The notes under the pieces: model-generated | What the model saw: only the letters and a program-made list of their open reading frames with translations | What the model was told of the DNA's origin: nothing | Databases searched by the model: none | IMG/VR virus record: IMGVR_UViG_3300020347_000007 | Coordinates: 1 to 48,188 of that record | From: a virus | Length of the DNA stretch: 48,188 nucleotides | Reading direction: 5' to 3' (one strand) | In this document: positions 38,366-48,002 of the stretch, in pieces | Position numbering within the stretch: the stretch's first letter is position 1 | How the letters are laid out: every line of letters starts with the position of its first letter | Position numbers and translations under genes: made by a program

Positions 38366-41300
38366 ATGGCATTTCAGTTAAGACGTGGATCAAACACAGA
38401 TAGATTAAACATTAAGTTATCCCAAGGTGAGTTAGTTTATACTACTGACACCAAAAAGTTATTTGTTGGTGACGGTATCACAGTTGGCGGAACTGAAGTA
38501 TCATTGAATGATAGTGATATTAACGCTACTATTTCTGGTGGGCAGAGTCCTGCTATTTTAGCAATTGTCACTAAAGAATTTGTAGATAACTTAGGTATTA
38601 ATGCTGTAAAGTTAGATGGATATAGTAGAGATTACTATAGAAATTATAATAACTTGACAAATACTCCAAGTATTTTAGACAGTAGTAATATTCAATCACT
38701 GTCCCGTGATTCTTCTTTTGTGTCTAGTGTTGTAGACAGTAGTTATGTAAATAACCTTGTTAATACTTCTTATATCCAAAGTAAAATTGATCAACTCTTT
38801 ATTGATACATTTGACACTCATGATTCTGGTGCTGTTCAGAATATGATTGACATTGCAGTTGCTGCAAATGATACTGTAGACTCAGCTGCAATTGTTGCAC
38901 AAATTATTAATACAGTAACACAATCCTTTATTGATACCTTCAATACGCATGACTCTATTGCTGTAGGAAACAATATTGACTCTAAAGTAGACCAGACATT
39001 TGTTCGTAACTTTATTGATCAAAGTTTTATTCAAGCATTTATTAACCAAGCATTTATTAATACCTTTGATACACATGATGAAGTTGCTACTTTATCACAA
39101 ATCAATTCTACGATAGATGGAGCATATGTCCGTAACAGTATAGACCAAGCATTTATTAATACGTTTGATACACATGATAGTGCAGCGGTTGTAGGTCAAA
39201 TTAATGCAACAGTAAATCAAACCTTTATTGATGCACTTGATACACATGATAGTAATATTGTTGCATCCCAAATTTATACTACAGTAACACAATCCTTTAT
39301 TGACCAGTTTGATACACATGACAGTGCTGCTGTTCAAGCACAAATTGATGCTATTCCGGGTTTGAGTGGTGATGCAGTAACTCTTGGTGGAAATGATTCT
39401 TCTTACTATTTAAATTATAATAACTTTAGTAATACTCCTAATTTGCTGGATAGTTCTGAAGCATTAAATCTTATCAATACTTCTTATATTCAAAGTAAAA
39501 TTGATCAGACATTTATTAATACTTTTGACACGCATGATAGTGCTATTGTAGATGCACAGATTAATGCTGAACTTGCTACAAGAACTTTTTATGATTCTGG
39601 TGCTGTGCAAAATCAGATTGACTCTGCTGTAACACAGTCTTTCATTGATACCTTTGACACACATGATAGTGCAGCAATAACAGGTCAAATTACTAGCACT
39701 GTTAATACATCTTATGTTCAGGGTAAGATTGATCAAACCTTTATTGATGGGTTTGATACGCACGACTCTGTTGCTATCCAAAATATGATTAATACAACTA
39801 TTGCTGCAACAGATACACATGATAGTTCAGCAGTATTAGGTCAGATTAATGCAACAGTAGACCAGACATTTGTGCGCAACTTTGTTGATCAGTCTTTCAT
39901 TGATACCTTTGACACTCATGATAGTGTCGCTGTCCAAAATATGATTAATACAACTATTGCTGCAACAGATACACATGACAGTGCTGCTGTTCAAGCACAA
40001 ATTGACACGACTATTGCTGCAACAGATACACATGATAGTGTTGCTATTCAGAACCAGATTACATCTACAGTAAACCAAGCATTTATTGATACCTTTGACA
40101 CACATGATGAAGTTACTGTTCAAGCACAAATTGACTCTGCTGTAACACAGTCTTTCATTGATACCTTTGACACACATGATAGTTCTGCTGTAGATGCTCA
40201 GATTGATGCTAAGTTAGGAACCAATGTAACTGTTGGAGGAAATCTTTCGGTTACTGGATATATTGATGGTCCTGAAGTATTTACAATTGATCCTGCTGCT
40301 GTTGGGGATGCTACTGGTAAAGTCGTTATTCTTGGAAACTTACAGGTTGATGGTGTTCAGACAACAATCAACTCTACAGAAGTAAGTATCTCTGATAAAA
40401 ATATTGTCTTAGCAGACTCTGCTACATCTGCTGCTGAAGCAAACGGTGCAGGTATAACTGTTAATGGTGCTTCTGCTACTCTACAGTATGTTTCAAGTGG
40501 AGACAAGTGGGAATTTAATAAAGACGTAAACGTATTCGGTGATATCTCTGTTTCTGGTACTGTGGACGGACGTGATGTTGCTACTGATGGCACTAAACTA
40601 GATGGCATTGAAGCAAGTGCTACTGCTGATCAGACAGGCAGTCAAATCAAAGCATTGTATGAAGGTGAATCTAATGCCTTTACTGATGCCCTATTTACCA
40701 AGCTTGCTGGTATTGAAACAGGGGCAACAGCTGATCAAACAGGTGCAGAAATTAAGGCACTATACGAAGCAGAGGCTAATGCCTTTACTGATGCTCAATT
40801 TACTAAGCTTGTTGGTATTGAAACTGGAGCTACAGCTGATCAAACAGGTTCGCAAATTAAGGCACTATATGAAGGTGAGTCAGACACCAATGCTTATAAT
40901 GATGCTGCGGTAACAAAGCTAGCAGGTATTGAAGCAAGTGCTACTGCTGATCAAACCGCAGCAGAAATTCTAACTGCTATTAAAACTGTTGACGGCGCTG
41001 CTTCAGGATTAAATGCTGACTTATTGGATGGTGTAGAAGCTAATCAGTTTTTACGATCAGATGTTGCCGACACCAAGACAAGCGGCAACTTAAATTTTGC
41101 TGAAAATGTCAAGGCTACGTTTGGTGATAGTGCCAATCCCGACCTTCAGATTTACCATGATGGGGCTAACAGCCGTATCGCAGATTTTGGTACTGGAGAA
41201 CTTAGACTACAAGGGACTAACCTACGTCTATGGTCAGCAACTGGTGAAAACTATCTTACAGCAGAAGAAAATGGTGCTGTATCATTATACTACGATAATA

Positions 41301-41869
41301 GTGCTAAGATTGCCACAACATCTACTGGCGTTGAAGTATCTGGTAGTATTACTGTTGATGGTGATATTACTTTCAGTGACTCAGATAATATTATCATGCC
41401 AGACAATTCCAAGATTAAGATTGGTACTGGTGTTGATCTTGAAATTTACCATGATGGTAGTCACAGTTATGTTGATGATCGTGGAACTGGTGATTTAAGA
41501 CTTCGTGGTAATGGTGCTGTAAAGATTATGCAGTACAATAACAGCGAACAAATGGCAGCATTTAAGGTTAATGGGGCTGTAGAATTATATCATGATAATG
41601 TTAAGAAGTTTGATACTACCAGCACGGGTGTTAGCGTAACTGGAACAGTTACTGCTACAGCATATGAAGGCGATGGTTCAAGTCTTACGGGTATTTCAGC
41701 AGGTGCTACAGGTGGAAGCACTGATGAAGTATTCTATGAAAACGATCAGACAGTAACTACTAACTATACTATATCAACAAACAAGAATGCTATGACTGCT
41801 GGACCGATAACAGTAAATAGTGGAGTTACAGTAACGATCCCAACTGGATCAGAATGGAGTATTGTGTAA
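38366..41869 (+). CDS. Long repeat-rich tail fibre with THD repeats
   Basis: 1167 residues. The N-terminus (FQLRRGSNTDRLNIKLSQGE, LVYTTDTKKLFVGDG) is the standard fibre attachment block. Residues 150-610 hold fifteen Thr-His-Asp motifs (for example FIDTFDTHDSAAVQAQID) spaced mostly by 19, 24 or 33 residues. Residues 747-870 hold 35-residue repeats (IETGATADQTG, IKALYE). After that come trimeric beta-fibre blocks (DLQIYHDGANSRIADFGTG and DLEIYHDGSHSYVDDRGTG) and a C-terminus EWSIV. This is probably the shaft to which the following small proteins and adhesins bind. First gene of the block between gp15 and gp16. Confidence 0.75.
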   Translation: MAFQLRRGSNTDRLNIKLSQGELVYTTDTKKLFVGDGITVGGTEVSLNDSDINATISGGQSPAILAIVTKEFVDNLGINAVKLDGYSRDYYRNYNNLTNTPSILDSSNIQSLSRDSSFVSSVVDSSYVNNLVNTSYIQSKIDQLFIDTFDTHDSGAVQNMIDIAVAANDTVDSAAIVAQIINTVTQSFIDTFNTHDSIAVGNNIDSKVDQTFVRNFIDQSFIQAFINQAFINTFDTHDEVATLSQINSTIDGAYVRNSIDQAFINTFDTHDSAAVVGQINATVNQTFIDALDTHDSNIVASQIYTTVTQSFIDQFDTHDSAAVQAQIDAIPGLSGDAVTLGGNDSSYYLNYNNFSNTPNLLDSSEALNLINTSYIQSKIDQTFINTFDTHDSAIVDAQINAELATRTFYDSGAVQNQIDSAVTQSFIDTFDTHDSAAITGQITSTVNTSYVQGKIDQTFIDGFDTHDSVAIQNMINTTIAATDTHDSSAVLGQINATVDQTFVRNFVDQSFIDTFDTHDSVAVQNMINTTIAATDTHDSAAVQAQIDTTIAATDTHDSVAIQNQITSTVNQAFIDTFDTHDEVTVQAQIDSAVTQSFIDTFDTHDSSAVDAQIDAKLGTNVTVGGNLSVTGYIDGPEVFTIDPAAVGDATGKVVILGNLQVDGVQTTINSTEVSISDKNIVLADSATSAAEANGAGITVNGASATLQYVSSGDKWEFNKDVNVFGDISVSGTVDGRDVATDGTKLDGIEASATADQTGSQIKALYEGESNAFTDALFTKLAGIETGATADQTGAEIKALYEAEANAFTDAQFTKLVGIETGATADQTGSQIKALYEGESDTNAYNDAAVTKLAGIEASATADQTAAEILTAIKTVDGAASGLNADLLDGVEANQFLRSDVADTKTSGNLNFAENVKATFGDSANPDLQIYHDGANSRIADFGTGELRLQGTNLRLWSATGENYLTAEENGAVSLYYDNSAKIATTSTGVEVSGSITVDGDITFSDSDNIIMPDNSKIKIGTGVDLEIYHDGSHSYVDDRGTGDLRLRGNGAVKIMQYNNSEQMAAFKVNGAVELYHDNVKKFDTTSTGVSVTGTVTATAYEGDGSSLTGISAGATGGSTDEVFYENDQTVTTNYTISTNKNAMTAGPITVNSGVTVTIPTGSEWSIV
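38800..40210 (+). repeat. Degenerate THD repeat array within the fibre gene
   Basis: Fifteen copies of a unit centred on the codons for Asp-Thr-His-Asp-Ser/Glu. His codons lie at 38819, 38948, 39074, 39173, 39245, 39317, 39533, 39662, 39761, 39818, 39917, 39974, 40031, 40103 and 40175. Spacings resolve into units of 19 and 24 residues and combinations of them. Several copies are nearly identical in DNA, such as TTTGACACACATGATAGT, so recombination or slippage is likely. Confidence 0.8.
40604..41000 (+). repeat. Tandem 35-residue repeats in the fibre gene
   Basis: Units starting at 40604, 40709, 40814 and 40925, spaced 105, 105 and 111 bases. Each encodes GIE(A/T)(S/G)ATADQT followed in the first three by IKALYE and an Asn-Ala-Phe-Thr-Asp type segment; the fourth is partial. 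Confidence 0.8.
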
Positions 41870-42315
41870 TGTCCAAATTACGTTTATCAGGTGCTACGTC
41901 TAGTTTTGAAGAAATTAAAACAGCAGATGCTGGTGACGGTAATACCTATCAAGTAGGCAGCACAGTAACGGATGCACAGGGTAATGTTCGTGCGCTGGAG
42001 GTTACAACTAATTCCACAACATCTGTAACAATTGCTGCTAGTTCTTCTGGTAAATATTTTAGACTTACTGGAGCAGCCACTACAACCATTAATATCAATG
42101 CAGGTAACTTTGCTGCTGGTGATATCATTACATTGCATAATGCAACATCATCTGATATGACTATCGACTTTGATGCTAACTTTACTGATACAGTTTACAT
42201 TGCCGGTGATGGCACAGATAAAAACAACAGCACTATCACTCTTGCTGGTTATGGTCTTGCTACATGTATTGCATTTACTTCTGCTGGCATGATTATTAGC
42301 GGGAACGTGAGCTAA
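41869..42315 (+). CDS. Small beta-rich connector protein, module 1
   Basis: 148 residues from the ATG at 41869, chosen because it overlaps the upstream stop as TAATG and has GGAG upstream; an in-frame ATG at 41854 would add five residues. The second half (GKYFRLTGAATTTININAG, DIITLHNATSSDMTIDFDA, STITLAGYGLATCIAF) is a beta-solenoid or sandwich. It ends ISGNVS. The same layout and Val-Ser ending occur at 43161 and 46232, and each copy stands before an adhesin gene. Probably a cap or adaptor between fibre and adhesin. Confidence 0.65.
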   Translation: MSKLRLSGATSSFEEIKTADAGDGNTYQVGSTVTDAQGNVRALEVTTNSTTSVTIAASSSGKYFRLTGAATTTININAGNFAAGDIITLHNATSSDMTIDFDANFTDTVYIAGDGTDKNNSTITLAGYGLATCIAFTSAGMIISGNVS

Positions 42316-43148
42316 TGAGTGTTCCTCAGTTGATGATGTTGAGTGGTGGGTTAGCTGGTGGTGGCCGAAATGGTTTATCATCAGGTACTGCTGGTGAAAG
42401 TGCTGCACAAATCTTAGCTGATTTTCCTAGCTCGACAGATGGTGTTTATTGGATCGACCTTCCTACTGTTGGTCCTACTCAGATTTATTGTATAATGAAT
42501 AGTAGTTACGATGGTGGTGGTTGGATGTTAGCTATGAAGGCAACTAGAGGAACTACATTTGATTATACCGCAAGTTACTGGGAAACTAACAATACCCTCA
42601 ACCCAACAGAAAATAATCTGAATGACGGTGATGCAAAATACAATAGTTATAATTATTTTGCAGGAACTGATATCATGGCAAGATTCCCTGACGTGTCAGC
42701 ACCGCTAGTTGTAGCATTTGGAGGAACTTTAGGTTCTGGATTAAGTGCATGGACTTGGCATGAAAATGATTATTATAATAGTGGGTCAGCAACAACCTTG
42801 TTAAATCATTTTACCAATACCTCTAACAATACCTATCTTTTAGAAAATGCTGCTGTAACTAGTTGGGCAGGACATTCGGGAGGACCATTCAGCGCACAGT
42901 CAGGTTACAGAAAGTATGGGTTTAATTTAGACGAAAGTTCAATTGCAGTATCAGGCGCAAGAGCTAGATGGGGATTTGCATGGAACAATGAAACAACTGC
43001 TGGTTCAAACGATGTATACAGTGGCATTGGTCTTAACTCAACTCGGTTAGGTGTAAACATTGCTTATTCTGCTGGGGATTTCCTCGGTTGTTGTCAATCA
43101 TACACTGGGGAAAACAGAACTATGAGAGTTGAAATGTATGTTAGATAA
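42315..43148 (+). CDS. Fibrinogen/intelectin-like adhesin, module 1
   Basis: 277 residues. After an N-terminal Gly/Leu-rich segment and SAAQILADFPSSTDGVYWID, the sequence follows the fibrinogen-related domain pattern: QIYCIMNSSYDGGGWMLAMK at about residues 56-75, then a Trp/Asn/Thr-rich body and CCQSYTGENRTMRVEMYVR at the end. In animals this fold (FReD, intelectin) binds sugars and acetylated groups. Here it is likely the receptor-binding tip that recognises a host surface glycan. Cys in the opening strand matches the first conserved Cys. Sugar binding is inference. TAATG overlap with its connector. Confidence 0.65.
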   Translation: MSVPQLMMLSGGLAGGGRNGLSSGTAGESAAQILADFPSSTDGVYWIDLPTVGPTQIYCIMNSSYDGGGWMLAMKATRGTTFDYTASYWETNNTLNPTENNLNDGDAKYNSYNYFAGTDIMARFPDVSAPLVVAFGGTLGSGLSAWTWHENDYYNSGSATTLLNHFTNTSNNTYLLENAAVTSWAGHSGGPFSAQSGYRKYGFNLDESSIAVSGARARWGFAWNNETTAGSNDVYSGIGLNSTRLGVNIAYSAGDFLGCCQSYTGENRTMRVEMYVR

Positions 43149-43160
43149 AGGACACACTAA

Positions 43161-43535
43161 ATGACAACTACAATTTCAGGAAGTTCACTTTCAACAGATA
43201 ATTTTACGCTTAGTGGAATCGGCTCAGGCAGTAGTGGCACGTCTACTGGTTCGACTACATGGGATGTATCGTCTACACAAACACAAGTTGTAACCGCTTC
43301 AGGCGCAACTACAGTAACAATTAGCAATGCTAGTTCAACACCAGTCGGCACTGGATTCACATTAATTGTAATTGATGCTGCAAGTGCCAGTCTTACTATT
43401 TCAGCATCACCTACACCAAAGTATGTTGACGCTACAGCACCTGCTCTTAATGGCACTAGCGGCGAGTATCTTGTTATTGGACTATGCCATGTCGGTAGTG
43501 GTCAACTGTTAGTTACAAGCGCAACGGTTTCTTAA
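43161..43535 (+). CDS. Small beta-rich connector protein, module 2
   Basis: 124 residues, Ser/Thr/Gly-rich N-terminus followed by beta-strands (TVTISNASSTPVGTGFTLIV, ASLTISASPTPKYV) and a LVTSATVS end. It shares strand order and ending with the 41869 and 46232 proteins and ends two bases before the LamG adhesin. Function as adaptor is inferred from this position. Confidence 0.6.
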   Translation: MTTTISGSSLSTDNFTLSGIGSGSSGTSTGSTTWDVSSTQTQVVTASGATTVTISNASSTPVGTGFTLIVIDAASASLTISASPTPKYVDATAPALNGTSGEYLVIGLCHVGSGQLLVTSATVS

Positions 43536-43536
43536 T

Positions 43537-46200
43537 ATGTTCGGTCTTTTCGGATATCCTGTGATGACTAGTTTTAAGAGCGAGCTGTGGGATGGCACTG
43601 CCAATTACCTTATCCTTGCAGGTGGCGGTGGAGGCGGTGGTGTTATCGACGGCGGCGGAGGTGCTGGCGGTTATCGTACATCATGGGGAACTGGCACTGA
43701 CGGCACTGGCGGAAACTCTGGTGGATTAAGTTCTTTAGAAACTGCTTTGATTATGACTAGCGGAACTGCTTACTCTATTACTGTAGGTCAAGGTGGGCAA
43801 GGTGGTCTAGGTTGGAATTCATCTGCTAATTTACGAGGCCATAAAGGTAGAACCTCTAGCATTTCAGGAAGTGATATCACTACTGTAACAACAGTTGGCG
43901 GTGGTGGCGGTAAAGGTTTTAACTATACCGGAAGTACTGAAAGGGATGGTGGATCAGGCGGTGGTGGCGCTTATCCTGCGGCTGGCGGGTCTAGGCATGG
44001 TTCAGGAACTACTGGAGAAGGCTTTAGTGGTGGTACTGTAACTGTTGATGTAGGCGGTGGTGGTGGCGGTGCAGGTGGCGCTGGTGCTGGATCAACATCT
44101 ACTGCATCGGCTGGAGACGGCGGCGTTGGCCTTGCTTCTACAATTACCGGAACCTTAGTATCTAGAGCTGGCGGTGGTGGTGGTGGTATTCGTGCTAGTA
44201 GCGGCACAGATAATGGCATTGGAGTTGCTGGTGGTGGTGATGGTGGCGTTAACTCTGTTACACGTCTTTCATATGGCACCGTTACAACTGTGGCAGCAAC
44301 ATCAGGTAGACCTCAATATGGCGGTGGCGGCGGTGGTGCTGGATACAATGCTGCATCGTCTACAATAAGTACAGGTGGTAATGGTGGCTCTGGTAATGTT
44401 ATTTTAAGACTTCCTAAAGAGGCAAATTACAATGCTACCAAGTTGGCACACGACGTAAGCTCTGCTAGTAACTGCACAGCATCTTATCTGAACACACGTG
44501 TATACACAGCCGATGCTAATTTTGGTGATGTAGTTCTACTCATGGATGGCACTTCGACAACCACCGACTTATCAATTCAAAACCAGACAGTAACGGAAAC
44601 CGGCAGCGACACCGCTTTATCTAATGAGACTGACCCGTTCGGGAACACCGTGGACGTTCTCGACTTTAACAGAGCAGCAGGGACTGCAATCACCGGTATT
44701 CAGGTATCCAATTCACCAATCCCGTTTGGCAACAGTCCGTTCACCATTGAGATGTTTGTAAAACTAGACGCATTGGATGACGCACAATTCCTCTACTCTG
44801 ATCGAACCAGCGACGCCAGTAAAACCTTTGTTTTATTTCGGGTGGAATCAAGCGGAAAACTAAGGTTTTTTAAGGACAGCGTTGTTGGGGGAAATCTAGA
44901 GGGAACTACAGTCCTTTCTGCTGGCACTTGGTATCATGTCGCCCTGACATATGACGGGTCCACCATACGAATGTTTGTAGATGGCGATGAAGACGCCACC
45001 AGTACCCAGTCATTGACGTTCAATTCTAATGTCAATCCTGTTTTAGGGTACGACCCGTCATCAACTTCAAGTGCAGCTAATTACTATGCCGGTCAGCTAA
45101 CAGGACAGATGACGCAAGTTCGAGTTACCAAAGGCGTCGCTCGGTATACTGCTAACTTCACCCCGCCTACCTCTGCATTACCTAACCCAACCATGACAGG
45201 TGGTGACCATGTTATCTCGTTTAATGTAGCAACAGAAACATCACATCCCGGAGATGCATCTAACAATGACGGCACAATTACATGGACACCGATTATGTCT
45301 CCAAGGTCCGTTATCTCTGGCTCTGAGTTCCTGCTTGTTGGTGGTGGCGGTGGCGGCGGACAGGGTTCGGTCGGCCCCGGCGGAGGTGGCGCTGGAGGTA
45401 TGGTTGTTGGAACCAATCAATCTCTCTTAACTGGAAACTCATATTCTGTTGTCATTGGCGCAGGTGGTGTTACTCAATCAAACGGCGCTAACTCGACTTT
45501 CAACTTCAATTCTCTTACCGCAACAGGTGGTGGTCGAGGCGGCGCTTGGTATGCCTACAACAATGTTGATGCTGGTCAATCTGGCGGTTCCGGTGGTGGA
45601 GGTGCATCTGGTGCAGGCACCGGCACTAAGGCTGGTGGATCGGGTAATCAAAATAGTTACCCGTCCCTTACTAACATAACAGGTTACGGTAACAATGGTG
45701 CCAACGCATCTCAATATAATGGAGGCTACTTTGCCAGTGGCGGCGGTGGCGCTGGTGGTAATGGTACTTCTGGTAGTGGTTCTAATCATACAGCAGGTAA
45801 TGGCGGTGCTGGTGAACAATGGGCTGTGGATTTACAGTATTACGCTGGCGGTGGGGGTGGCAATGCTTACATCCCTAACGCCGAAGGTGGCACTGCAACC
45901 GGAGGGAATGGTGGTACTGGTGGCGGTGGAACGGGACGACTCAGACAACAAAACAGCATTAACAACCGAGAAGCAACGCCGGGCACTGTTAATACTGGTG
46001 GCGGCGGTGGCGGCGGTGAAAGTGGTGGCTCCGGCGTGTTCAAAATCTGGATACCTGTTGCTAACTACACCAGCTATGTTCTCGGTTCGGAACTAACCGA
46101 AAGTGCAACTCAGCAGGTCACATATAACAGCGTTGATGGCACATTAATTACTATCACTGCAAGCACTGGCACATCCACAAATACGATTACGTTTCAATGA
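43537..46200 (+). CDS. Glycine-rich / LamG / glycine-rich adhesin, module 2
   Basis: 887 residues in three parts. Residues 20-295 and 595-865 are polyglycine domains (YLILAGGGGGGGVIDGGGG and EFLLVGGGGGGGQGSVGPG) of the polyglycine-sandwich adhesin type. Between them, about 325-550, is a LamG/concanavalin-like lectin: FGDVVLLMDGTS, SPFTIEMFVKLDALDDAQFL, GTWYHVALTYDGSTIRMFVD, and AGQLTGQMTQVRVTKGVARY. The LamG part uses GC-ending and CGN codons unlike nearby fibre genes, suggesting recent acquisition. Likely receptor binding to a glycan. The start two bases after the connector stop has no strong ribosome site, so coupling is likely. Confidence 0.75.
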   Translation: MFGLFGYPVMTSFKSELWDGTANYLILAGGGGGGGVIDGGGGAGGYRTSWGTGTDGTGGNSGGLSSLETALIMTSGTAYSITVGQGGQGGLGWNSSANLRGHKGRTSSISGSDITTVTTVGGGGGKGFNYTGSTERDGGSGGGGAYPAAGGSRHGSGTTGEGFSGGTVTVDVGGGGGGAGGAGAGSTSTASAGDGGVGLASTITGTLVSRAGGGGGGIRASSGTDNGIGVAGGGDGGVNSVTRLSYGTVTTVAATSGRPQYGGGGGGAGYNAASSTISTGGNGGSGNVILRLPKEANYNATKLAHDVSSASNCTASYLNTRVYTADANFGDVVLLMDGTSTTTDLSIQNQTVTETGSDTALSNETDPFGNTVDVLDFNRAAGTAITGIQVSNSPIPFGNSPFTIEMFVKLDALDDAQFLYSDRTSDASKTFVLFRVESSGKLRFFKDSVVGGNLEGTTVLSAGTWYHVALTYDGSTIRMFVDGDEDATSTQSLTFNSNVNPVLGYDPSSTSSAANYYAGQLTGQMTQVRVTKGVARYTANFTPPTSALPNPTMTGGDHVISFNVATETSHPGDASNNDGTITWTPIMSPRSVISGSEFLLVGGGGGGGQGSVGPGGGGAGGMVVGTNQSLLTGNSYSVVIGAGGVTQSNGANSTFNFNSLTATGGGRGGAWYAYNNVDAGQSGGSGGGGASGAGTGTKAGGSGNQNSYPSLTNITGYGNNGANASQYNGGYFASGGGGAGGNGTSGSGSNHTAGNGGAGEQWAVDLQYYAGGGGGNAYIPNAEGGTATGGNGGTGGGGTGRLRQQNSINNREATPGTVNTGGGGGGGESGGSGVFKIWIPVANYTSYVLGSELTESATQQVTYNSVDGTLITITASTGTSTNTITFQ

Positions 46201-46206
46201 TAAATA
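46199..46206 (+). promoter_or_regulatory. Possible degenerate late promoter for module 3
   Basis: GATAAATA, one base from TATAAATA, in the 31-base gap before 46232. Relaxed NATAAATA late boxes are known in cyanophages, so it may be functional. Confidence 0.4.
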
Positions 46207-46231
46207 TGTTACAAAGAACAGGTAATAAAAA

Positions 46232-46657
46232 ATGAGTACATTAGCAACTACAAATCTAAAGAATCCGTCATCAGGCACAAACAATATTGAGCTTGAGACT
46301 AATGGAGATGTGACTGCTACTGGCAGTATAAGTGATAGCGTCAGTGATGTGAGAACACCACGCTTTACAGAGATTACTTCCGATTCAACTATTTCTAACG
46401 AAGGCGTATATAAACTAACGAGTGGTGTTTCGACCATCACTCTGGGCGCTCCTGCTATCGGCACAGTCATGGCAGTTTATAACAACTCGACTAGTTCTGT
46501 AACCCTAGAGGATGGTGCTACGGTAACATCTATGAGACTTGGTGCTGATAACAACGACACACACAATAACACCTTGACGTTAGGCGCTAGGTCTATGACA
46601 ACAATCACGTTTATTGCTTCTAATACGTGCGTTGTTACAGGAACGGATGTAAGCTAA
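46232..46657 (+). CDS. Small beta-rich connector protein, module 3
   Basis: 141 residues. The second half (GVYKLTSGVSTITLGAPAIG, VYNNSTSSVTLEDGATVT, NTLTLGARSMTTITFIASN) aligns by eye with the 41869 protein and ends TGTDVS. It precedes the third adhesin with a TAATG overlap. Role as adaptor inferred. Confidence 0.65.
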   Translation: MSTLATTNLKNPSSGTNNIELETNGDVTATGSISDSVSDVRTPRFTEITSDSTISNEGVYKLTSGVSTITLGAPAIGTVMAVYNNSTSSVTLEDGATVTSMRLGADNNDTHNNTLTLGARSMTTITFIASNTCVVTGTDVS

Positions 46658-47604
46658 TGAGCTCTATTCTTCTCGCTACCACTAATGTGTTTGGTTCCAG
46701 TGTAGGTGTAGGCGGTATTGAAAGTGATATAAATGTTAGTGGTCAAAGATACCGTGTCCATGTATTTACGTCTTCTGGCACGTTCTCTGTACCTAATGGT
46801 AATTTATCCGACGTAGAATATCTAGTGATTGCCGGTGGTGGTGGCGGCGGTGGAGGATTTTATCAGCACGCCGCAGGTGGTGGATCTGGTGCTGGAGGAT
46901 ATAGATCTAGTATTTCCGGAGAAAACTCTGGTGGCGGAAGTACGGCTGAATCTAAATTATCTCTGAGCGATGGATCATCTTACGCCGTTACAATAGGAGC
47001 AGGTGCAGCAGGTGGTACTGGAACCTCTACTGCTCATACCAATGGTGGTAATACAACTTTTCATACTATCACTAGCCTAGGAGGTGGTAGAGGTGGTAAA
47101 TGGAATGGCACTACCGGTGGCACTTCTACTAGCGGAGGATCTGGAGGAGGGGCTGAGAACAGTCAAAATCCCGGACATTTAACAGCATCTGCTGGAACAT
47201 CTGGTCAAGGATATGCAGGAGGTAACGGTCAAGTTTATGCAGGAGGTGACAACACATCTGCTGGCGGTGGTGGAGGAGCAGGTTCTGTTGGTGCTGCCGG
47301 TGCAAGTGTAACGGGTGGTGTAGGTGGAGCCGGAGGCAGTGGCGTAGCAAGTTCTATAACCGGAAGCTCTGTCACCCGTGCTGGTGGCGGAGGAGGTGGT
47401 AGTGGATCCACAACTACTGGAGGTTCTGGAGGTTCTGGCGGCGGAGGTGCTGGTGGATACGAAGGGGGGTCTGCTGCTCTTAGAAATGGTGATAACGGTC
47501 AAGCAAATACCGGAAGTGGCGGGGGTGGTGGCTGTGCGACCACCGTAAATACTACTGGTGGCTCGGGTGGCTCAGGAATAGTAATTATAAGGTATAGAAT
47601 ATAA
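46657..47604 (+). CDS. Glycine-rich adhesin, module 3
   Basis: 315 residues from the ATG at 46657; an in-frame ATG at 46627 would overlap the connector by 31 bases, and the TAATG start is more likely. After YRVHVFTSSGTFSVPNGN, a common opening of glycine-rich phage adhesins, comes EYLVIAGGGGGGGGFYQHAA, LSLSDGSSYAVTIGAGAAGG, TSLGGGRGGKW and further polyglycine to a SGIVIIRYRI end. The pattern closely follows the two glycine-rich parts of the module 2 adhesin. It likely forms a polyglycine-sandwich tip that determines host range. Confidence 0.75.
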   Translation: MSSILLATTNVFGSSVGVGGIESDINVSGQRYRVHVFTSSGTFSVPNGNLSDVEYLVIAGGGGGGGGFYQHAAGGGSGAGGYRSSISGENSGGGSTAESKLSLSDGSSYAVTIGAGAAGGTGTSTAHTNGGNTTFHTITSLGGGRGGKWNGTTGGTSTSGGSGGGAENSQNPGHLTASAGTSGQGYAGGNGQVYAGGDNTSAGGGGGAGSVGAAGASVTGGVGGAGGSGVASSITGSSVTRAGGGGGGSGSTTTGGSGGSGGGGAGGYEGGSAALRNGDNGQANTGSGGGGGCATTVNTTGGSGGSGIVIIRYRI

Positions 47605-48002
47605 TGTCACATTACGCAAAAGTAAATGAAGGTGAAGTACTAAACGTAATAGTAGCTGAGCCTGAGTTTTTTAATTCCTTTGTTGACTCATCTCCCGGTG
47701 AGTGGATAAAGACTAGTTATAATATGCGGGGAGGAGTTTATTATGATCCTCAAACTAGACAGCCTGTAGCTGATCAATCCATTATTAACGGTGATGAAGC
47801 TAGGATGAGAAAAAACTATGCAGTGCCGGGTGGTCATTACGACAAACAACTAGACGCATTTTACGGACCACAACCATATCCTAGTTGGGTACTTAACACA
47901 GAATCATTTTTATGGGAACCCCCCGTAGCTCATCCTGATGATGGTAATTTTTATTTATGGGATGAAGAAACGCAGTCTTGGCATCAAGTAACAGAGGAAT
48001 AG
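47604..48002 (+). CDS. Conserved marine phage protein, unknown function
   Basis: 132 residues. HYAKVNEGEVLNVIVAEPEF, PGEWIKTSYNMRGGVYYDP, RKNYAVPGGHYD, and YPSWVLNTESFLWEPPV form a pattern I recognise as common beside fibre genes of marine phages, without a proven function. The alternating Trp/Tyr/Pro blocks suggest a compact beta protein, possibly a fibre assembly helper or a decoration. TAATG overlap with the glycine-rich adhesin ties it to the adhesin block. Confidence 0.7.
   Translation: MSHYAKVNEGEVLNVIVAEPEFFNSFVDSSPGEWIKTSYNMRGGVYYDPQTRQPVADQSIINGDEARMRKNYAVPGGHYDKQLDAFYGPQPYPSWVLNTESFLWEPPVAHPDDGNFYLWDEETQSWHQVTEE

Follow-up and report, generated by a model that had tools for sequence, protein, structure and literature searches.

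Three tandem connector–adhesin pairs in a marine T4-like phage as candidate detachable tips with slot-specific docking tags

Three genuine adaptor–adhesin gene pairs, all intact and evolving under purifying selection, lie in tandem between gp15 and gp16 of a marine T4-like phage. They probably form a detachable-tip system resembling that of T-even gp37/gp38, whose adaptors are here stand-alone and triplicated and whose docking tags differ from slot to slot. This reading is based on conserved connectors and tags, exchanged adhesin bodies, the fold assigned to the connectors, purifying selection, and fusions of fibre and connector in relatives. The phage is known from a fragment record, IMGVR_UViG_3300020347_000007, of which one strand of 48,188 nt (the window) was analysed, and it has no close cultured relative. 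Among cultured phages, the best gp15 identity was 45% (Phage C48C1) and the best baseplate wedge identity 34%. In Phage C48C1 the terminase small subunit directly follows gp15 and the cassette is absent.

Layout of the locus and its expression signals

The gene order in the window is gp14-like, gp15 (37464), tail fibre, con1-adh1, con2-adh2, con3-adh3, a phrog_7759 gene and the start of gp16; the features from the fibre to the phrog_7759 gene are all on the + strand. The fibre gene (38366–41869) encodes 1167 aa with an Mtd_N-type N-terminus, many degenerate FIDTFDTHDS-type repeats and a C-terminal cap also present in cyanophage fibres. Fibre length varies among relatives, and the fibre is longer (1551 aa) in the close relative described below. 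The fibre stop codon overlaps the con1 start (TAATG). An in-frame ATG at 41854, inside the fibre end and upstream of the con1 start (MEYCVMSKLRL..), is kept in several relatives and is probably a mere consequence of this overlap.

The ORF positions agreed with the three alternating connector/adhesin pairs described in the sequence-only reading, as did their tight spacing: con1/adh1 and con3/adh3 share one base (TAATG), and the con2 stop lies 1 base before the adh2 ATG. Each connector begins with its own type of anchor peptide, MSKLRLSGATS.. in con1 (41869–42315), MTTTISGSS in con2 (43161–43535) and MSTLATTNLKNP in con3 (46232–46657). The order of the anchors, 1-2-3, was constant in four contigs and 1-3-2 in contig L020. 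Loci L024 and L053 carry the slot-3 anchor on a protein lacking the connector domain, and L025 likewise the slot-1 anchor. At L020:5057-6354 a con3 domain carries a slot-2-type anchor, and therefore anchors and connector domains also recombine.

The adhesin types assigned from sequence alone were borne out by family matches. The fibrinogen-like adh1 (42315–43148; phrog_1325) matched the NCBIfam fibrinogen-like GGGWT family (E 7e-12). The product of adh2 (43537–46200) is Gly-rich/Laminin-G (ConA-like)/Gly-rich, with matches to Laminin_G_3 (1e-18) and Gly_rich_2 (7e-16), and that of adh3 (46657–47604) is Gly-rich (Gly_rich_2, 5e-15). Pfam and PHROGs matched none of the cassette proteins to a tailspike or to the gp10 family, and the three tips showed no enzymatic domain of the tailspike kind. 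A scan for relatives of adh3 found none.

A T4-type late-promoter-like motif, (N)ATAAATA, was found at 46200–46206. In each of the seven contigs that have the slot-3 anchor it precedes the start of the slot by 26–32 nt, and two of these contigs otherwise differ in upstream sequence. An ATAAATA-type late-promoter motif is known from S-PM2 and, as TATAAATA, from T4 (PMC2984593). The motif was not enriched across the whole window, being conserved only in its position before slot 3, and no late-promoter motif was found within 70 nt upstream of slots 1 and 2. DNA homology to the close relative starts exactly at the 46200 motif, which suggests that promoter and cassette move together. Neither sigma-70 consensus promoters nor terminators were commoner than in shuffled sequence.

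The phrog_7759 gene (47604–48002) overlaps adh3 (TAATG) and differs among relatives, being missing or replaced in L027 and L019. Its own relatives occur in roseophages, in pelagiphages and at three places in Methylophilales phage Melnitz. It may encode a tip-specific chaperone.

Exchange of adhesin bodies behind connector and tag

Relatives were retrieved using adh1 and each connector as query, never the tags. Because the contigs are incomplete and share ancestry, counts across them do not represent independent events. The close relative 3300005239_000009 (L018/L027) has a gp15 98% identical in DNA and the same cassette order and flanking genes. Its connectors con1, con2 and con3 are 96, 80 and 89% identical to those of the window (93, 88 and 84% in DNA), and its adhesins are different. 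Beyond the first 12–17 residues the slot-1 and slot-3 adhesins are unrelated to the window's, and the slot-2 adhesin is a mosaic. One block of DNA homology (41641–42365) runs from the fibre end to codon 17 of adh1, i.e. connector and tag. Homology also covers con2 and the start of adh2, and a further block (46200–46697) starts at the late-promoter motif and ends in codon 14 of adh3; the next block is gp16.

These short shared adhesin starts are the candidate docking tags: MSVPQLMMLSGGLAGGG in slot 1 (42315–42365), MFGLFGYPVMTS in slot 2 (43537–43572) and MSSILLATTNVFG in slot 3 (46657–46697), the slot-1 and slot-3 tags ending where homology to L027 ends. The consensus is MS[IV][TP]QLM.LSG after con1, MFGLFGYP[VL]MT after con2 and M[SG][SA]I[LI]LA[AT]TN after con3. 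The sequence-only reading had proposed asking whether each connector pairs with its adjacent adhesin in other genomes, and the answer was divided: the tag follows the connector, the body hardly does. In Mantel tests on 20 pairs, connector and tag were strongly correlated (r 0.88, P 2e-4), connector and body hardly (r 0.13, P 0.05) and tag and body similarly little (r 0.11). A wider set of 32 pairs gave 0.70 for connector against tag and 0.09 for connector against body. Part of the connector–tag correlation may be linkage, because the tags adjoin the connector in DNA. Tag prediction on loci found later was positive but weak on average: mean similarity was 0.32, compared with 0.25 when partners were random (P 0.015).

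Tag substitutions were mostly synonymous, with a pooled pN/pS of 0.28 and 0.06 for tag 2; the next 15 codons are unrelated. Tags were also retained at great connector distance. In L044, whose connector shares 44% identity with the con3 type, the adhesin starts with the predicted tag MSSILLAATNVFG and continues with an unrelated body, and in L020 the tag is retained at 41% connector identity. The body of adh1 occurs behind con1-type, con2-like and other connectors. The most telling swap involves one adhesin body, at 93% DNA identity, that carries the con2 tag in L018, where it occupies slot 2, and the con3 tag in L020, where its slot is of con3 type; the common DNA begins approximately 54 bases into the gene (about codon 18). 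At the sequence level, the unit kept together is the connector plus the first 12–19 residues of the adhesin.

Comparative genomics thus strongly supported the earlier idea of a cassette repeated with exchange of its adhesin, but duplication could be demonstrated for con1 and con3 only, con2 being a separate family. Tail-tip proteins are usually too variable for recognition. A conserved connector followed by a short tag offers a sequence rule for locating the tip adhesin and the exchange boundary in uncultured phages, including adhesins of non-gp38 folds. The same adhesin in different sockets is a natural experiment on the swapping of host recognition without loss of assembly.

Connector families, predicted fold and fusion to fibres

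That the connectors resemble each other held at the sequence level for con1 and con3, which are homologous (profile-profile E 6e-44 over 122 columns) and whose iterated profiles from related loci recover each other. By contrast, con2 was not recovered by iterated searches with the con1/con3 profiles (profile comparison probability 0.3), and its likeness is that of predicted fold. When the three connectors were compared directly with 50,697 phage records by tblastn, no match emerged, and divergent relatives served as stepping stones to reach homologues there. A sequence profile search of the PDB with the connectors returned chance matches only, and no con3 relatives were found in bacterial genomes. 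Once all connector relatives were aligned, their sequences proved too divergent to define a pattern for scanning. The C-termini GNVS, ATVS and TDVS are as first read. Val-Ser is the end of the domain's last strand, and since many homologues end in NVG, GLS or DVT instead, it was rejected as a special signature.

The con1 model had a block-mean pLDDT of at least 87 from residue 41 on, the first 40 residues being of low confidence. Its PDB matches were the Pa223 spike, CBA120 TSP4-N (E 9e-4), Solidus gp83, T4 gp9 (probability 1.00, E 0.01), CpaA and StcE. Since gp9, CpaA and StcE are the relatives listed for XD1 (PMC8825819), we assign the predicted con1 domain to the gp9/gp10 XD1-like group. 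The top three matches of the con2 model, Solidus gp83, TSP4-N and the Pa223 spike, were all among the top matches of con1 (E 0.01–0.035; pLDDT 65, five sequences). On these models, the predicted fold of con1 is a T4 gp9/gp10 "XD1"-like domain, and con2, at moderate model confidence, may share it. The con1 fold is frequent in uncultured tailed phages (345 matches at E <=1e-3 in a library of structures predicted for viral proteins), so the domain as such is nothing new.

Values of dN/dS were 0.09–0.13 for con1, 0.07–0.13 for con2 and 0.09–0.17 for con3, so no connector is decaying. Of the two outcomes that the sequence-only reading had named as counting against it, decay of modules did not occur; as to unrelated folds, con1 and con2 share top structural matches, at the confidence given for con2.

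Elsewhere the connector domain is commonly part of a fibre. At 26 of 46 places it is the C-terminal domain of a longer protein (265 to 1445 aa), some of which are clearly fibres, and nearly all of these 26 have an adhesin gene directly after the fused connector. The next start codon lies −3 to +7 nt from the connector at 41 of the 46 places. In L008, the end of a fibre carries a fused con1 domain (89% identity), and what follows it is related to adh1 (83%). The same arrangement was found in cultured phages (podoviruses and another cyanophage), where the connector domain ends the tail fibre and the adhesin gene comes next. The following protein is LamG in S-B28, Gly_rich_2 in S-CBS2 and Pfam GP38 in SnaP-R1 and Limnohabitans YIMV22061, the adhesins of the last two exceeding the Pfam GP38 cut-off in the equivalent position. 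Thus, as in T-even gp38-type tips, a separate tip gene with a conserved N-terminus and a variable body lies right behind a fibre-tip domain. These fusions support con1 as the distal socket of a fibre. At L030:5133-5344, the fused connector is followed only by a tiny ORF ending SSALTYSSTVGTLLTVTGDTTLTFN, like the C-terminus of Gly-rich adhesins; it is probably an adhesin with a deleted body.

Proposed tip architecture, alternatives and known systems

In the reading we favour, each cassette would encode a two-part detachable tip. The connector would be a structural adaptor, with a slot-characteristic N-terminal anchor peptide followed by a socket made of an XD1-like beta domain, which is probably a trimer. 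The tip adhesin would come from the following gene; its first 12–19 residues would act as a plug fitting this socket, and its lectin-like remainder would bind the host surface. Inter-phage recombination would attach new bodies just after the plug, so that the tip changes and assembly is undisturbed. The con1 adaptor would most likely sit on the far end of the fibre whose gene immediately precedes it, and con2 and con3 would be extra adaptors for further tips. A counter-point to the XD1-like socket is that XD1 is a spacer in CBA120 and T4 gp10, where XD2/XD3 bind partners (PMC8825819). More tentatively, and with less than even confidence, we propose a two-level docking code: slot-specific anchors would place the three stand-alone XD1-like adaptors on a single virion and adaptor-specific tags would place three exchangeable lectin-type tips, which would be displayed at once, each being changed by recombination.

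Rather than being long-fibre tips, slots 2 and 3 might be separate short fibres or decorations, each using its own N-terminal anchor to attach to the baseplate or elsewhere on the virion. We regard this as a serious possibility, if short of probable. It would account for a distinct anchor type per slot in constant order, for the late-promoter-like motif conserved before slot 3, and for the slot-3 anchor on connector-less proteins in L024 and L053; comparable N-terminal motifs also start tandem adhesins in cyanophages. Yet the slots are closely packed with the fibre operon, the predicted connector fold appears to be the same as that of con1, and slot-specific anchors are still compatible with one shared fibre. 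It seems unlikely that the three pairs are alternative tips competing for one fibre end, giving a mixed virion or fibre population, as a single upstream fibre gene and three cassettes in one operon region could suggest. The three anchors are mutually different, which argues for distinct docking partners, and purifying selection acts on all three pairs. Nor did the 48 kb record, a genome fragment, contain a resolvase family match, a reverse transcriptase (RVT_1) or an invertase, and its sole inverted pair (16-nt) flanks no cassette; phase variation and a DGR were rejected accordingly.

The tag could also merely hitch-hike, with recombination breakpoints falling slightly inside the adhesin gene and the tag having no binding role. 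It does adjoin the connector gene, and short 5' homologies in adhesin genes would aid recombination, but the excess of synonymous over amino-acid change and the tags retained in L044 and L020 make this improbable. Least credible is that the connectors are assembly chaperones absent from the virion, like T4 gp38 or lambda Tfa. Small proteins beside fibre genes are often chaperones, as a matter of general knowledge, but the connector domain is fused to the ends of fibre proteins, and for this reason the role was rejected; its predicted fold is that of virion parts, and the variable gene at 47604 is a better chaperone candidate.

The detachable-tip reading has precedents. In the T-even gp37/gp38 systems (T2, S16, PP01), the adhesin gene is likewise separate, follows the fibre tip and has a conserved N-terminus and a Gly-rich variable body. 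The gp38 N-terminus docks on gp37 and must match, such that a T2/PP01 chimera was needed (PMC12892980). In our locus, however, the docking domain is a small gene of its own in three copies, the conserved segment is just 12–19 residues, and the bodies include fibrinogen-like and LamG folds. As judged by their sequences, the cassette adhesins are not gp38 family members, adh1–3 giving no match to Pfam GP38 at E up to 1. The designation as an undescribed host-range system was thus upheld in part. Its kind is known, from T-even tips and from hypervariable fibre islands (PMC7029224), whereas the stand-alone triplicated adaptor with a short slot-specific tag is new insofar as the open-licence literature yielded no description, which is limited evidence.

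XD-type beta adaptors also take part in multi-tip attachment by TSP1-4 of the Ackermannviridae phage CBA120 and by T4 gp10/gp9, and Ackermannviridae tailspikes similarly exchange C-terminal binding modules behind conserved N-terminal docking parts (PMC8825819, PMC11414711). In CBA120, however, the XD domains are N-terminal in the tailspikes and branching occurs via XD2/XD3, whereas in our locus the XD1-like domain stands alone, on the C-terminal side of an anchor; the cassette is not an XD2/XD3 branched complex. Marine T4-like phages (pelagimyophages and cyanomyophages) carry a hypervariable island with tail fibres (PMC7029224). This host recognition cluster is comparable to our locus, and S-MbCM7 has tandem fibrinogen-like adhesins, but it lies between VrlC and gp14 rather than between gp15 and gp16, and in cyanophages the anchor is fused straight to the adhesin with no connector gene. 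In haloarchaeal hafunaviruses, a Gly-rich, gp38-like tip adhesin in a hypervariable region sets host range; one adhesin gene per virus is described there (PMC8651126), as against three tandem connector–adhesin pairs here.
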